From Clostridia bacterium (GTDB taxonomy: Bacteria > Bacillota > Clostridia > UMGS1883): a stretch of DNA of 64,000 nt. Position 1 is the first letter of the stretch, and each line of letters begins with the position of its first letter. The stretch spans positions 1 through 64,000 of the forward strand of contig JAFSGW010000099.1 of NCBI GenBank assembly GCA_017440585.1. Reading direction: 5' to 3'. The notes under the pieces were generated by a model, which ran no database searches, was not told where the DNA came from, and saw only the letters and a program-made list of their open reading frames with translations. A program made the translations under genes and the position numbers. Positions 6,991 through 60,770 of this stretch are shown here, piece by piece.

Positions 6991-7013
6991 GGGCGACCAA
7001 TGGTCGCCCCTAC
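6991..7013 (-). repeat. REP palindrome with GTAG tag
   Basis: On the minus strand it reads GTAG followed by the hairpin gggcgaccattggtcgccc. It lies between the flavin reductase gene and tcdA. See the RAYT gene at 43752. Confidence 0.8.
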
Positions 7014-10333: not shown

Positions 10334-11026
10334 ATGAGCACAAAAAAGATACTTGTAGTTGAAGACGAAAAGCCTATTTCTGACATTTTAAAGTTTAATT
10401 TAGAGAAAAGCGGATACGAGGTTATTTGTGCCTACGACGGTGAGGACGGCATGAATAAGGCACTTAGTGAAAGCATTGACTTAATGCTTCTTGACGTTAT
10501 GCTTCCCAAGATGGAAGGCTTTGACGTTTTGAAAAGGGTGAGAGAGAAAAAGCAGAACGTGCCCATCCTTATGCTTACGGCACGTGAAGAAGAGGTTGAT
10601 AAAATTTTAGGGCTGGAGTGGGGCGCAGATGACTATATCACAAAGCCCTTTTCCATGCGTGAGCTTTTAGCACGTGTTAAGGCAAATTTACGCCGCACAG
10701 TTACGGAAAACGAGCCTACGGTAAGTGAAATTGCCTCCTTCGGCAACCTTGCAATTAACTATTCACGCTATGAGGTTACAAAAAATTCGGAAATTGTTGA
10801 GCTTACCTTACGTGAGTTTGAGCTTTTAAAGTTTTTGTCTACACAGCCCGGCATGGTGTTCTCCCGTGAAATGCTTCTTGAGAAGGTTTGGGGCTATGAA
10901 TACTTCGGTGACGTGAGAACCGTGGACGTTACCATCAGAAGACTGCGTGAAAAAATTGAGGATGACCCGGCACATCCCCTTATTATCATGACAAAGAGGG
11001 GTATCGGGTATTATTTGAACAAGTAG
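10334..11026 (+). CDS. walR: response regulator WalR/YycF
   Basis: A 230-aa OmpR/PhoB-type response regulator. The receiver domain (about 1-120) has VVEDEKPISDILKFNLEKSG, the phospho-acceptor Asp in LMLLDVMLP and the switch lysine in ADDYITKPFSMRELLARV. The winged-helix domain (about 130-230) has LTLREFELLKFL and RTVDVTIRRLREKIEDDP. The receiver matches WalR (YycF) closely, and walK, yycH and yycI follow, so the assignment is firm. WalR normally controls wall hydrolases. Its stop codon TAG is part of the GTAG tag of a REP palindrome at 11023. Confidence 0.93.
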   Translation: MSTKKILVVEDEKPISDILKFNLEKSGYEVICAYDGEDGMNKALSESIDLMLLDVMLPKMEGFDVLKRVREKKQNVPILMLTAREEEVDKILGLEWGADDYITKPFSMRELLARVKANLRRTVTENEPTVSEIASFGNLAINYSRYEVTKNSEIVELTLREFELLKFLSTQPGMVFSREMLLEKVWGYEYFGDVRTVDVTIRRLREKIEDDPAHPLIIMTKRGIGYYLNK

Positions 11027-11045
11027 GGGCGACCATTGGTCGCCC
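11023..11045 (+). repeat. REP palindrome overlapping the walR stop codon
   Basis: GTAG followed by gggcgaccattggtcgccc (one extra G). The TAG of the tag is the walR stop codon. Confidence 0.85.
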
Positions 11046-22137: not shown

Positions 22138-22160
22138 GGGCGACCAATGGTCGCCCCTAC
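22138..22160 (-). repeat. REP palindrome with GTAG tag
   Basis: gggcgaccaatggtcgccc followed by cctac on the plus strand (GTAG tag on minus). It lies between two genes of the rhamnogalacturonan operon and shares the flanking word attgca with the copy at 6991. Confidence 0.8.
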
Positions 22161-39201: not shown

Positions 39202-39262
39202 GCGAAGTTGATGTCGGGTACCACAAACGAAGTTCCTTCGACAAATCAAAAATTTGGAGGAA
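39080..39262 (+). repeat. exact 44-bp direct repeat in the leader (39080-39123 and 39219-39262)
   Basis: Both copies contain cgaagttccttcgacaaatc and end in the RBS tttggaggaa. The second copy provides the RBS of the gene at 39268; the first is followed by no start codon. Confidence 0.9.
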
Positions 39263-39267
39263 TATTT

Positions 39268-42200
39268 ATGAAACTTAAAAGATTTTTAAGCTTAGCAGTT
39301 GCTCTTGCAATGGTACTTTCTATCGTGCCTGCATTCAGCCTTATTGCAAGCGCAGAATTAAGCGATGCAGCTGTTCTCGAATATGCAAAGTCAACAGCTA
39401 CTCTCTTTGATGCAACAAATCCCGCTCCTACAGCAACAAACGATGCAGCTGTAGAAACAGCATATCCTGCTTCCGGTATCACAACAACACTGAATGACGG
39501 TTACCTTAACGTTAATTCCGGTCCCAGATTCCAGTGCTATGCCGGCGACAGCGTAAACGGTAACCAGGGTGTTAACTACCTTAACCTTCCCGGTTACGGC
39601 GTAGGTAACGATTGGGTGCTTGTAAGCTATATTACAGAATATACCTGCGCATGGGGTGAAGTTTTCCTTCTGGATACAGAAGGTAAGCTTCTTACAGGTG
39701 TTCGTTACGGTACAGGTGACAGCAATGCTATGAGCGTTGCATGGGGTCACAATGGTTGGGGCAACAGCTTAACAAGCCAGTTCCCCGGCTACACATTGAG
39801 CAACGAAGGTAAGACTACTGTTGCAAGTGGCAGCACACAGGTTGATGTTCTTCTCAGAAACTATGACGGTTCTTACACAGCTACATATTTTGTTAACGGA
39901 GCAGAATACTGCGTAGGTACATATGAAGGAACCTTCAACGGCCTTGGTCAGATCGGTCTTTGCCGTAACAGCGGTGGTTCCTGGTCTCGTATTTCTTTGC
40001 AGGCACTTAAGATTTATGCAGGCAACAACCCCTCTTCTTCTGATGCAACAACAATCAGCACAGCACTTAACGAGCTTACAGTTGATGCAATGACAAAGGG
40101 TACAGATCTTACTCTTGCTACAACAGCTGCAGACTCTTTCGGAACAACAGTAAATGTTGAATGGACATCTTCCAACACAGATGTTATTGATAATTACGGT
40201 AACGTAACAGCCCCTGCTGAACTCACAAAGGTTACACTTACACCTTCTGCTGAATTCGGTGGCGAAACAGTTACAGGTAATGCTCATACAGTTACAGTGT
40301 TCCCTGCTGTATACACAGCTGAGGATGAATTCAGCGCACTTGGTGCTTCTTACAACGTAGGCGAAAAGGTTGACCTTTCCTCTGTTTCCTGGTATACCCG
40401 TAAGTCCACAGCTGAAGAAACATACGGCGTAACAGGTCTTACAGAAGAAACTGTTAACGGTGTTAAGGTTACAACATTCCCCGGACTTGGTAGTGCAGGC
40501 GCTCTTGGCGACGGCACAGTCAACGCAAGAACATCTATTGCAGTTACACCCGGTCAGGCTTACCTTATCCGTTTCTACTACGGTAATTACTCCTTTGATA
40601 CAAACAACCCCTATGCTTATAACAAGGTATATACAACAGCTGCAAACTATGAAGATGAAGTTGCTATCGACTATGTTTCCGGTACAGCATCATCATCTAT
40701 CGCAACAACAAAGGATGGCTGGACAGAGGTTGAAGAAATTTTCATTCCTTCCGAAAACGCTAACTTCCTTACATTTGTATACAGCTGGTTAGGCGCAGGC
40801 CTTAAGATTGCAGACATGGAGCTCTACACACTTGTTGAAGATACAACAGCTGTAGAAACAGTAACAGAAGTTGCTGACGTTACTGCTGTTAAGGTTATCG
40901 GCGATACAGCAGTAGTTCTTCCCCAGACAGTTAAGGTTACAGGCTCTCTTGGTAGCCATGTTGATGCTCCTATTGTATGGGATGCTCCCGCAACTTACGG
41001 CGTGGGTACAGTAACAGTAAACGGTACAGCTACAGTTCAGTTTGGTGAACAGGATGCTACAACAGAAGACGTTTCCACAACGGTTACAGTTCTTGAAGAA
41101 ACATTCACACTTTCTGACGTTACAACAGTTAACGGTCAGGGTGCAGGTAAGGAAGCTCAGGTAGCATTCCCCGTAGCAATCAGCGACGAATTCAATATGG
41201 AATTCACAGCTAACTACGCTTCTTTCGGCGACCTCTGGATTACAATCAAGACAAAGGATGCAGGCTTCTTCTCTCCTGAACAGATTCCTCTCGGTGTTAA
41301 CGCTTCCGGTGCATTCCGTCCCGTAAACGGTAACGGTTCCGGTGGCAGAGCACAGGCTGACAGCGACCTTGCATACCTTACAACAGGGGTAAACTACAGA
41401 TTCTTCATCACAACAGATGCTTCTACAGATAAATACACAGTATCTATCTTCGACGAAGCAGGTGTAGAAGTAGTTACAGCTGAAAACTTCGGTTACAGAA
41501 CAAATGCTGATGCAATCGAGTGTATCACATCTATCACAAACAACGGTGCAGGTAGCGTAACTCTTACAAACATTAAGGTTAACGCTAACGTTTCCAAGAC
41601 AGAATATACAATCAATACAACAATTGATGGCACAACAACATCCGCTACAGCTTCCTTCTGGACTGATGAAGAAGCTCTTGCTTCCATTCAGGACATTGCA
41701 GGCTACGAAAAGGCTGTTTCTATCGAAGGCACAACAATTACAGTTGTTTACTCCAACGTATACACAGCACACGCTACATTTGTTGACGCTGATGACAACA
41801 CAGTTAAGGTTGTTGATGTAGAGGTTAAGAGAGGCGAAACCTACACAGTGGCAGCAGAAGATGTATTCTTCCTTAAGTCTAACTATGAAGGTCACCTCTA
41901 CTACATCCCCGAAACAGTAATTTCTGAAGATAACAATAATCTTACAGTTTATGTTCAGGACGATCCCAATAAGTATCCCGCTATAGAAGACGCTCTTATT
42001 ACAGGCGTTTCCGAAATCTGGGGTATTAAGGCAACAAACGAAAACAGTGTATTCGTTGCATCTGCAGGCGGAGAAGGCTCTCCCACAGTTGATGCTAACG
42101 GCGAAAGAAATCATGATGCTAACCACACTCCCTCTACTCTTGGTACAACAAGAAAGGGCTTCTTCCTCTTCCCCGTTGTTGATGTTGAAGAAGGTCAGAA

Positions 42201-43617
42201 GGTAACAGCTAATTTCTATGTTCGCACATGGCATGGTAATGGTTTCTCCAACGGTAACCAGACACTTCGTCTTGCAGCTTATGCTGTAACAGATAATTCC
42301 TGGGCTACACTTTCCGATGGTGATACAAGCTATGTAGCAAACGATGCTCCTCTTCTTGAAAGCTGGAATACACCCGTATTCTCTGAATGGTGCTACAATA
42401 ACCCCGGTTATATCACATTTGATATTACAGAGATGATGGTAGCAGCTAAGGCTGCAGGTCTTAGCGAGCTTACACTTAAGCTCAATGCTCCTTACGGTGC
42501 TGCATACATTGCAGAACGTGAAGCAGCAGTTGCAGGCGGTCAGTACGAGGATAAGGTTGCTTATATCGAAGTTTCTGATGCAGGTCTTGTAAAGGTTACA
42601 GAAACAGGTGATGCTACACTTACAAAGAACGGTTCTGCTATGAACGGCTTTGCATACGTTGCTTCTACAGACGATGTTCGTCTTAATGCAGCAGATGCAG
42701 TTGTTATCGGTACAGATGCAGGCTACTATGAAGCTAACAAGAACCTTAACCTTACAGAAGCAACAACATTCGCTAACACAGCTCCTGCAGGCCTTGGTCT
42801 TGCAATGGTAGGCGGTGCTCAGGTACGTATCGGTTCCACAAACCTTGAAGAAGGCGGAAAGCTTGATGCTCTTGCAGACAGTGGTATCAGATTCCTTGCA
42901 ACAGCTTCCTACAGCGATACAGTTCTTGATGACGAAACAGTTGAATTCGGTATCAAGGTATCCGCTGAAGCTTCCGAAAACGTTGCATACATTCCCGCTG
43001 TATCCTTCCAGAATGATGACAACAGCGTATTCTCCGCTGCTATCACAAGCCTTAAGGAATCCAACTACAACAGAAAGTACACAGCTGTAGCTTATGCTAA
43101 GGTTCCCATGGCTGACGGCTCCGTTAAGGAATTTGTAACAGATGGCGTAACAAGAAGCATTTACCAGGTATCTGCAGGTATCATGAAGAATGGTACAGCT
43201 GATGCAGAAAATGCAGCTTACACAGTTGAAGGCGTAGTTAAGAACGTTCTTAACGCTTACGTAAACCAGACAGGTATCCGCCTTTCCTACACAGCTGACG
43301 GTATTGCAGTTGAAGAAAACAAGTACACAGGTGATGTATTCTTCACAGTTACATCTGAATCTGATGGCGACGACGGCTTCAATGTTACAATCACTCCCGA
43401 TGCAACATGGGGTACACCCGCTGAAATTGCAGAGTGGTGGACAGATTATGTAAGATTCAACAACAATAACAGCATTGCAAAGGGTTATATTTCCGCAAAC
43501 TACTATGTTGACGGCGAACCCGTATTTGTTCATGATGATGGTAGTCTTACATTCAACTTCGACACAACAGACGATGGCACAGGCGGTTTTGATGGCCCCT
43601 GGGTTCCCATTGGCTAA
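39268..43617 (+). CDS. large secreted protein with Ig-like modules, unknown function
   Basis: A 1449-aa secreted protein. Signal peptide at 1-28 (ALAMVLSIVPAFSLIASAE). A laminin/lectin-like N-terminal part (about 30-265, with YTATYFVNGAEYCVGTYEG) is followed by bacterial Ig-like modules (VNVEWTSSNTDVIDNYGNVT near 300; APIVWDAPATYGVGTVTVNG near 590), another lectin-like region and a C-terminal domain about 1190-1350 (DSGIRFLATASYSDTVLDDE). No SLH, sortase or catalytic motif is seen. Codon bias matches the S-layer gene, so it is probably abundant, perhaps an adhesin or matrix protein. I start at the ATG at 39268, where the signal peptide begins. Confidence 0.8.
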   Translation: MKLKRFLSLAVALAMVLSIVPAFSLIASAELSDAAVLEYAKSTATLFDATNPAPTATNDAAVETAYPASGITTTLNDGYLNVNSGPRFQCYAGDSVNGNQGVNYLNLPGYGVGNDWVLVSYITEYTCAWGEVFLLDTEGKLLTGVRYGTGDSNAMSVAWGHNGWGNSLTSQFPGYTLSNEGKTTVASGSTQVDVLLRNYDGSYTATYFVNGAEYCVGTYEGTFNGLGQIGLCRNSGGSWSRISLQALKIYAGNNPSSSDATTISTALNELTVDAMTKGTDLTLATTAADSFGTTVNVEWTSSNTDVIDNYGNVTAPAELTKVTLTPSAEFGGETVTGNAHTVTVFPAVYTAEDEFSALGASYNVGEKVDLSSVSWYTRKSTAEETYGVTGLTEETVNGVKVTTFPGLGSAGALGDGTVNARTSIAVTPGQAYLIRFYYGNYSFDTNNPYAYNKVYTTAANYEDEVAIDYVSGTASSSIATTKDGWTEVEEIFIPSENANFLTFVYSWLGAGLKIADMELYTLVEDTTAVETVTEVADVTAVKVIGDTAVVLPQTVKVTGSLGSHVDAPIVWDAPATYGVGTVTVNGTATVQFGEQDATTEDVSTTVTVLEETFTLSDVTTVNGQGAGKEAQVAFPVAISDEFNMEFTANYASFGDLWITIKTKDAGFFSPEQIPLGVNASGAFRPVNGNGSGGRAQADSDLAYLTTGVNYRFFITTDASTDKYTVSIFDEAGVEVVTAENFGYRTNADAIECITSITNNGAGSVTLTNIKVNANVSKTEYTINTTIDGTTTSATASFWTDEEALASIQDIAGYEKAVSIEGTTITVVYSNVYTAHATFVDADDNTVKVVDVEVKRGETYTVAAEDVFFLKSNYEGHLYYIPETVISEDNNNLTVYVQDDPNKYPAIEDALITGVSEIWGIKATNENSVFVASAGGEGSPTVDANGERNHDANHTPSTLGTTRKGFFLFPVVDVEEGQKVTANFYVRTWHGNGFSNGNQTLRLAAYAVTDNSWATLSDGDTSYVANDAPLLESWNTPVFSEWCYNNPGYITFDITEMMVAAKAAGLSELTLKLNAPYGAAYIAEREAAVAGGQYEDKVAYIEVSDAGLVKVTETGDATLTKNGSAMNGFAYVASTDDVRLNAADAVVIGTDAGYYEANKNLNLTEATTFANTAPAGLGLAMVGGAQVRIGSTNLEEGGKLDALADSGIRFLATASYSDTVLDDETVEFGIKVSAEASENVAYIPAVSFQNDDNSVFSAAITSLKESNYNRKYTAVAYAKVPMADGSVKEFVTDGVTRSIYQVSAGIMKNGTADAENAAYTVEGVVKNVLNAYVNQTGIRLSYTADGIAVEENKYTGDVFFTVTSESDGDDGFNVTITPDATWGTPAEIAEWWTDYVRFNNNNSIAKGYISANYYVDGEPVFVHDDGSLTFNFDTTDDGTGGFDGPWVPIG

Positions 43618-43688: not shown

Positions 43689-43712
43689 GGGGCGACCAAT
43701 GGTCGCCCCTAC
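43689..43712 (-). repeat. REP palindrome with GTAG tag, downstream of RAYT
   Basis: gggcgaccaatggtcgccc plus cctac. The following 30 bp (gtgggggacgggaaaatgct...) repeat at 44287, on the other side of the RAYT gene. Confidence 0.85.
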
Positions 43713-43751
43713 GTGGGGGACGGGAAAATGCTGCGACGTGTGGGAAACGTT

Positions 43752-44216
43752 TTACAAATAAAAGCAATCGTTTTCCCATTTTAATGGATTGGTATCAATA
43801 TATGTCCAAATATTGTTGTAATCCTGTTGATTACGAATGATGTGGTCGTGAAAGGATTTTTGCCAAACAGGTGAACCGACTGTCTTGGATACAGCACCCT
43901 TGAATTGCTGAATTACAGTGGAAATTGTAGGGGCGTGCATTGCACGCCCGTTGTCGCACATAAGCAGAATATGTACGTGATTGGGCATAACAACATATTT
44001 ATCAACGCGGATGTATGGATATAATGTTTCGATATTTAAAATAGCACTGTTCACAATTTCGCCGTATTGTGACAGTTGCGGGCGACCAATGGTCGCCCCT
44101 GCATCATCCCAGAATATACAAGCCTTGTCCTTTGTGCATACTGTTATAAAATATGCACCGCTACGGCTATAATCATAGTTTGGTAAACGATTAGGTTTGC
44201 GTTTAGGGAAATTCAT
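43752..44216 (-). CDS. REP-associated tyrosine transposase (RAYT, Y1/HUH type)
   Basis: A 154-aa single-strand transposase of the IS200/IS605-related Y1 family. It has the N-terminal SRSGAYFITVCTKD, the HUH motif in YVVMPNHVHILL (H80, H82), and the C-terminal WQKSFHDHIIRNQQDYNNIW with Tyr133 or Tyr139 as the nucleophile, then TYIDTNPLKWENDCFY. RAYTs bind REP hairpins preceded by GTAG. Two REP-like palindromes lie inside the gene: residues 40-46 (GATIGRP) and 89-96 (NGRAMHAP) are coded by them. I start at the ATG at 44216 with RBS gaaagga; an upstream in-frame ATG at 44369 would translate two more REPs and is unlikely. REPs flank the gene on both sides. Confidence 0.9.
   Translation of the reverse strand: MNFPKRKPNRLPNYDYSRSGAYFITVCTKDKACIFWDDAGATIGRPQLSQYGEIVNSAILNIETLYPYIRVDKYVVMPNHVHILLMCDNGRAMHAPTISTVIQQFKGAVSKTVGSPVWQKSFHDHIIRNQQDYNNIWTYIDTNPLKWENDCFYL
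43927..43949 (+). repeat. REP-like palindrome inside the RAYT gene (variant stem)
   Basis: GTAG then gggcgtgcattgcacgccc (with one extra G). The stem differs from the common REP (gtgca instead of gacca) but pairs perfectly. Confidence 0.75.
44080..44102 (-). repeat. REP palindrome inside the RAYT gene (GCAG tag)
   Basis: gggcgaccaatggtcgccc followed by cctgc, so the minus-strand tag is GCAG rather than GTAG. Confidence 0.8.
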
Positions 44217-44264
44217 ATGTTGGTGATCCTTTCGTGATTGATATTTTGTTGGAGGTTGTGGAGC

Positions 44265-44287
44265 GGGCGACCAATGGTCGCCCCTAC
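44265..44287 (-). repeat. REP palindrome with GTAG tag, upstream of RAYT
   Basis: gggcgaccaatggtcgccc plus cctac, 49 bp before the RAYT start codon. Confidence 0.85.
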
Positions 44288-44324
44288 ATGGGGGATGGGG
44301 AAAATGCTGCGACTTACGGAAAAC

Positions 44325-44343
44325 GGGCGACCTATGGTCGCCC
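44325..44343. repeat. REP palindrome without GTAG tag
   Basis: gggcgacctatggtcgccc, 38 bp from the copy at 44265 and touching the end of the secreted GH105 gene. Confidence 0.75.
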
Positions 44344-60651: not shown

Positions 60652-60770
60652 GGGCTTATGATAGTTTATTTATCACTTATGAATGGGCGTGAAAACGGGC
60701 GATTAATAATCGCCCCTACAATGTGTTTGCGCCTATCTGTAAGTGATAAACGCATAAGTCCTCATCTAAA
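60652..60770. repeat. imperfect inverted repeat carrying a REP palindrome
   Basis: gagggcttatgatagtttat... on the left faces ...taagtgataaacgcataagtcctc on the right, with the REP at 60697 between them. Confidence 0.6.
60697..60719 (-). repeat. REP palindrome with GTAG tag (variant stem)
   Basis: gggcgattaataatcgccc followed by cctac; the stem has tta in place of cca and pairs perfectly. Confidence 0.75.

Follow-up and report, generated by a model that had tools for sequence, protein, structure and literature searches.

An inverted pair of REP hairpins within the reading frame of a clostridial RAYT gene

We analyzed a 64,000-nucleotide stretch of DNA (the window) from a Clostridia genome and found that its RAYT gene contains two REPs in frame and mutually inverted, REP A at 44080 and REP B at 43927. 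Two inverted REPs thus form one unit, as in a REPIN. Sequence comparisons show that the sites, their orientation and their frame are fixed among homologues, that A and B change in concert, that dispersed REPs tend to match the internal type, and that one A–B unit lies outside a gene. We infer that recognition by the RAYT protein causes the likeness of A and B, and likewise infer any benefit of linkage or seeding. These results suggest that the RAYT gene carries two of its own REP substrates in inverted orientation, a built-in REPIN that would link enzyme and substrate, travel with the gene and occasionally be mobile, a reading that we hold at a probability of roughly 0.55.

The RAYT gene and the palindromes of the window

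The initial annotation had placed a RAYT gene near the palindromes, and this gene is real. A profile built from relatives matches E. coli TnpAREP (4er8; E 5.1e-12), which is also the best fold match of the predicted structure (mean pLDDT 87.6; VIA-align Z 12.6, rmsd 3.2 over 128 residues). The HUH motif is H80-V-H82 (NHVH), the catalytic tyrosine lies in Y139-IDT-N143-P (YIDTNP, the Y---NP motif), and a WQ motif is present; H80, H82, Y139, and N143 are invariant in the alignments. The NCBIfam REP transposase model NF047646 matched with an E of 6.5e-20 and 71.5 bits, below its curated cut-off of 80, which is a threshold for automatic naming rather than a biological feature, so that the shortfall lowers only the automatic label. 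W118, Q119, H125, and R128 have the same spacing as W94, Q95, H101, and R104 of E. coli TnpAREP, residues that text passages of Quentin et al. (2018; PMC6006769) tie to GTAG recognition. Q119 and R128 are invariant in both alignments, H125 is invariant or nearly so, and W118 is nearly invariant in the first; with this spacing, recognition of GTAG by the window RAYT is plausible.

All nine palindrome copies claimed for the window were found, compared to a chance expectation of 0 (100 shuffles), and the tag counts were as described, with GTAG on seven, GCAG on one, and no tag on one. The start that the annotation gives as 43689 moves to 43690, and the positions 11023 and 43927 mark where the tag begins rather than the hairpin (Table 1). 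Two copies (44080 and 43927) lie within RAYT coding sequence and the remaining seven outside any long ORF. The palindromes are thus repeated, tagged in eight of nine copies and extragenic in seven of nine, which are the features of GTAG-class REPs. Pairing, which had been said to be kept in the stem variants at 43927 (GGGCGTGC/GCACGCCC) and 60697 (GGGCGATT/AATCGCCC), is perfect in both. The hairpin at 44325–44343 is now probably a terminator between two minus-strand genes.

Table 1. Coordinates of the RAYT gene and REP features in the window
Feature	Position	Strand	Remarks
Dispersed REP, intergenic	6991-7013	-	GTAG-type palindrome, tag included
Dispersed REP	11023-11045	+	TAG stop of the ORF that ends at 11026 is part of the GTAG tag
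Dispersed REP, intergenic	22138-22160	-	Tag included
REP downstream of RAYT gene	43690-43712	-	Tag included
RAYT (TnpAREP-like HUH/Y1 transposase) gene	43752-44216	-	154 aa, MNFPKRKP...ENDCFYL
Internal REP B, inverted to A	43927-43949	+	GTAG + GGGCGTGCATTGCACGCCC; gene strand encodes GRAMHAPT
Internal REP A	44080-44102	-	Tag GCAG; encodes AGATIGRP
Internal inverted REP pair A..B, REPIN-like, in RAYT frame	43927-44102	-	Contains HUH codons
REP upstream, 5' region of RAYT gene	44265-44287	-	Same orientation as A
Untagged REP-like hairpin	44325-44343	.	Extended stem (13 pairs) with A/T runs
Dispersed REP, compensated stem variant GGGCGATTATTAATCGCCC	60697-60719	-	Tag included

Genome-wide (2.2 Mb, 103 contigs), the REP core matched 14 places when as many as three mismatches were allowed, compared to 0 for a backwards control pattern. 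Two further copies, resembling the one at 43927, were located on contigs C36 and C86, and the maximum in a relative was 26 REP copies. REPs usually number more than 100 per genome, and with 14 places in 2.2 Mb this is therefore a small family, not one of typical REP abundance. Partial checks of the two conditions that the annotation had said would refute it left it standing: the hairpin outnumbers its control pattern in the genome, and among relatives without a RAYT, ten genomes together contained just two REPs belonging to the three types that were searched for. The proposal that the window holds an enzyme and its REP family in a spore-forming member of the Clostridia stands as to the RAYT, the family, and, by its relatives, the Clostridia; that the host is a spore former is plausible, and a Spo0A gene scores above cut-off in the genome. 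Inverted pairs, which the annotation had proposed to look for, are represented by A and B within the RAYT frame. Its interpretation is supported but incomplete, as this in-gene pair, the main finding, was missed.

Several other features of the window were recorded. The ORF at 10334–11026, whose stop comes from the GTAG of the REP at 11023–11045, gave a weak match to the N-terminal half of the Spo0A model. The REPs at 6991–7013 and 22138–22160, together with REPs in loci L010 and L012, are sense-oriented and precede a start codon by ~10–45 nt, which differs from the usual 3' location of REPs. A 914-aa open frame (40789–43533, minus strand) antisense to a 1469-aa ORF (39208–43617) probably reflects codon usage and is not a real gene.

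Two fixed sites in RAYT genes and their concerted change

Site A lies before the HUH motif and site B is the loop after the HUH strand; both are loops in the predicted structure, with model confidence below that of the surrounding core. The two sites are about 180 nt apart (172–230 nt from tag to tag in the genes listed). To determine how widely they are occupied, we surveyed homologues from 391 class-level genomes, taking up to 18 kb around each RAYT, and from 80 named loci, which gave 144 distinct RAYT genes, 141 of them with all landmarks. Perfect hairpins of at least 8 pairs were present at site A in 53 and at site B in 60 of these 141 genes, compared to ~4 at each site after synonymous shuffling, and other regions of the RAYT genes were at the null level; synonymous shuffling accounts for less than one-tenth of the in-gene hairpins. 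GTAG directly 5' of the hairpin marked 44 of 53 at site A, and CTAC directly 3' marked 56 of 60 at site B. With one mismatch allowed, hairpins were found in 100 (A) and 116 (B) of 141 genes, compared to ~3 at random positions, and the in-gene GTAG was in a single codon phase in 105 of 108 cases.

Both hairpins occur in 93 genes, whereas one or the other is missing from about one-third. Among named genomes, both sites are present, for example, in Ruminococcus flavefaciens SAb67, R. bicirculans 80/3, Gemmiger formicilis, and Flavonifractor An10, and they are also present in a Spirochaetes MAG and a Synergistaceae MAG; neither was found in Flavobacterium stagni or in an Anaerolineae MAG. Among the RAYT matches from the 391 genomes, we saw no gene with the A–B segment cleanly excised. 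REPs upstream of the RAYT start in the surveyed genes are mostly 26 to 184 nt away and mostly in the A orientation.

Individual loci showed further arrangements. In locus L263 (G035:C53:14500-16137; 928–1638), site A of a RAYT ORF is occupied by an in-frame tandem array of about nine GTAG REPs, with VGAIHESSESPTHT repeats at a 42-nt period and more of the same kind just upstream, and L086 has three tandem in-frame REPs at this site. Other RAYT-like sequences near contig starts (G000:C67:119-890 and C69:119-319; L015, L017, and L018) had no strong GC-rich hairpin in the stretch examined, and one has an internal stop. An IMG/VR contig classed as viral (L353) bears a RAYT whose A and B hairpins are identical (GGGCGATCATTGATCGCCC); as it was the only viral contig found, we did not adopt phage carriage of RAYT genes as a general feature.

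The two in-gene hairpins are strongly alike. Across the 93 genes, A and B arms were identical at a mean of 7.62 of 8 positions (95% of bases), compared to 4.67 (58%) after permutation (0 of 10,000 permutations), and when each distinct A arm was represented by a single gene (39 genes, and thus 39 stem types) these values were 7.54 and 4.51. In the 37 of these 39 genes with equal hairpin lengths, A/B identity was 95% and 94% for the arms and 81% for the loops (57% when permuted), and the neighboring 12 nt on each side were 30% identical, which is chance; A/B similarity ends at the REP edges. The window gene itself differs between A and B at two of eight arm positions. Over all genes, there are 35 A/B arm differences, and 28 of these keep pairing in both hairpins. 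In gene pairs less than 65% identical outside the hairpins, which are not independent of one another, most differ at both sites and ~4% at just one.

The same DNA, stem GGGCGACC, is read as a VGATIGRP-like peptide at A and a GRPMVAPT-like peptide at B. Because the reading orientations are opposite and the peptides different, selection on the protein cannot keep A and B alike. One palindrome read as two peptides is a clear case of a DNA-structure constraint that crosses two places of a coding sequence.

REPs could also land by chance in a nearby RAYT gene, survive where its loops accept them, and have no role; text passages of Quentin et al. (2018; PMC6006769) read REPs inside RAYT genes of TnpAREP/RAYT subclass 2.4 in this way, as tolerated insertions of little impact. 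That A and B sit in loops of lower model confidence agrees with this, as do the tandem arrays of L263 and L086, which indicate that the site A loop accepts extra REPs, and the homologues lacking one or both hairpins. Random insertion, however, predicts no matched inverted pair, whereas A and B are of the same type with compensated changes, and their orientation, codon phase, and position are fixed over 39 stem types. The pair is also kept where no other copy was found in the genome, as in G096 (75% complete), in which the only two copies of its REP type are A and B themselves. We consider chance insertion unlikely.

Dispersed REPs and an A–B unit outside a gene

The type of the dispersed REPs tends to agree with that of the hairpins in the local RAYT gene. 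Among 112 tagged hairpins located no more than 8 kb from the genes, 46 matched the internal type, compared to a mean of 9.5 and a largest value of 24 when types were swapped between genes. Type GGGAGCGC was present outside the gene in 25, 8, 6, and 2 copies in the four genomes whose RAYT carries GGGAGCGC, a mean of 10.3, compared to 0.07 in 61 others (found in 2 of 61). Two other stem types had the same trend, less sharply (Mann–Whitney p 0.0014 and 0.0007). The matching is not absolute, as G073 and G223 have many REPs of a type carried by none of their RAYT genes examined.

Comparison of flanks revealed no RAYT-gene sequence beyond the hairpin beside the dispersed copies in G000, G002, and G073. 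Because most dispersed REPs thus lack adjoining RAYT-gene sequence, they are not generally copied from the gene, and we rejected general export from it as their source. An apparent GCAATTA-CCCAATA resemblance in G000 was at chance level (p 0.22–0.96 for the copies concerned). Most dispersed REPs in G002 (L281–L296) also have sequence outside the hairpin in common, TTGCCGGATTTT-GTAG...GCTTACACAGATTTACGG, which makes the unit repeated there longer than a REP. Loci L312–L314 (G053:C1) contain several copies of inverted pairs of two REP types, GGGCGGATA-like and GGGACGATG, with a near-identical spacer. Locus L260 (G035:C16, ~1546–2313) has, outside RAYT genes, a tandem array of seven REPs that are oriented alike, spaced ~126 nt apart, and similar in their flanks.

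In G011, from the same genus, an A..B stretch lies between greA and mrp, outside any gene. It is bounded exactly, from the GTAG of A to the tag of B, and is 72% identical to the window A–B DNA. The greA–mrp junction has no REP in G012 and G013, and a single B-type REP in G000. This pattern would fit movement of the internal unit and later decay to a single REP, in one case. A profile search of the 391 genomes for further A–B fragments gave extra matches mainly in G035, and those inspected were damaged or tandem gene copies, not clean units. G035 (L252–L262) has about fifteen RAYT A–B matches, many at contig ends; its RAYT genes seem to be multi-copy, which is unusual for RAYTs.

In-gene hairpins might instead lower RAYT expression, as mRNA structure or as DNA bound by the protein. 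Hairpins are known to repress IS200-type transposases, and GC-rich 9-bp hairpins in frame, with REPs upstream of the start, are consistent with such autoregulation. Simple attenuation needs neither the A/B sequence likeness nor a match to dispersed REPs, however, and we regard autoregulation as rather improbable. Least probable is homogenization by template switching without selection: inverted repeats ~180 nt apart can correct one another, which could keep the arms perfect and alike and agrees with loops that are also more alike than when permuted, but it leaves unexplained the match to dispersed REPs, the conserved tags, and the exact stop of similarity at the REP edges. Each of the three alternatives, chance insertion included, leaves part of the evidence unexplained.

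A proposed built-in REPIN and known systems

According to the built-in REPIN reading, DNA encoding two change-tolerant protein loops would keep a GTAG-tagged hairpin at A and the same hairpin, inverted, ~180 nt on at B. The protein would bind and cleave both as single-stranded DNA, as it would the dispersed copies, and A and B would be kept alike since one protein must recognize both. With a shift of the recognized stem in a lineage, the two copies inside the gene would shift as well, and dispersed copies would tend to be of that type. The pair would tie enzyme to substrate, travel with the gene, and occasionally leave it as a mobile unit; candidate benefits are this linkage, seeding after transfer, or regulation. 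Several observations weigh against this reading: the A–B unit outside a gene is a single clean case, RAYT-gene sequence is absent beside most dispersed REPs, type matching has exceptions, one hairpin is missing from about one-third of the genes, and in the window gene A and B differ and the A tag is GCAG. More tentatively, the pair may be a functional REPIN under selection for single-stranded DNA structure, a reference substrate that re-seeds REPs after horizontal transfer and couples REP type to specificity.

These results bear on the question of how RAYTs and their REPs stay matched. As enzyme and REPs lie in one stretch of DNA, with 39 stem types available, specificity can be studied by comparing gene pairs, with no whole-genome search.

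Subclass 2.4 is said to correspond to group 4 in the RAYT classification of Bertels et al. (2017). By comparison of motifs, the window RAYT has the NH[IFV]H and WQ motifs and the in-gene REPs of this subclass, and its YIDTNP is one consensus position off YIxNNP. Text passages of PMC6006769 give mainly Cyanobacteria and Bacteroidetes as subclass 2.4 hosts, and the in-gene REP site that they describe is site B here. In-gene REPs were therefore already known; those passages contain no second fixed site before the HUH motif, no inverted pairing, and no concerted stem change, and so neither the fixed inverted pair nor its concerted change.

The GTAG superfamily (Di Nocera et al., 2013; PMC3733652) shares with the REPs described here the tag, the palindrome, some intragenic copies, and stop codons supplied by the tag. 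Many of its intragenic copies fall within replication and repair genes, for the most part at varying positions, and the terms Firmicutes and Clostridi are absent from the main text of that paper. In Pseudomonas, two inverted REPs form the REPIN unit and single REPs are interpreted as remnants (Bertels and Rainey, 2011; PMC3116915). As in that system, an inverted REP unit is linked here to a RAYT of matching type; the Pseudomonas REPINs, however, are extragenic, whereas the best-preserved inverted pair here lies inside the RAYT gene.
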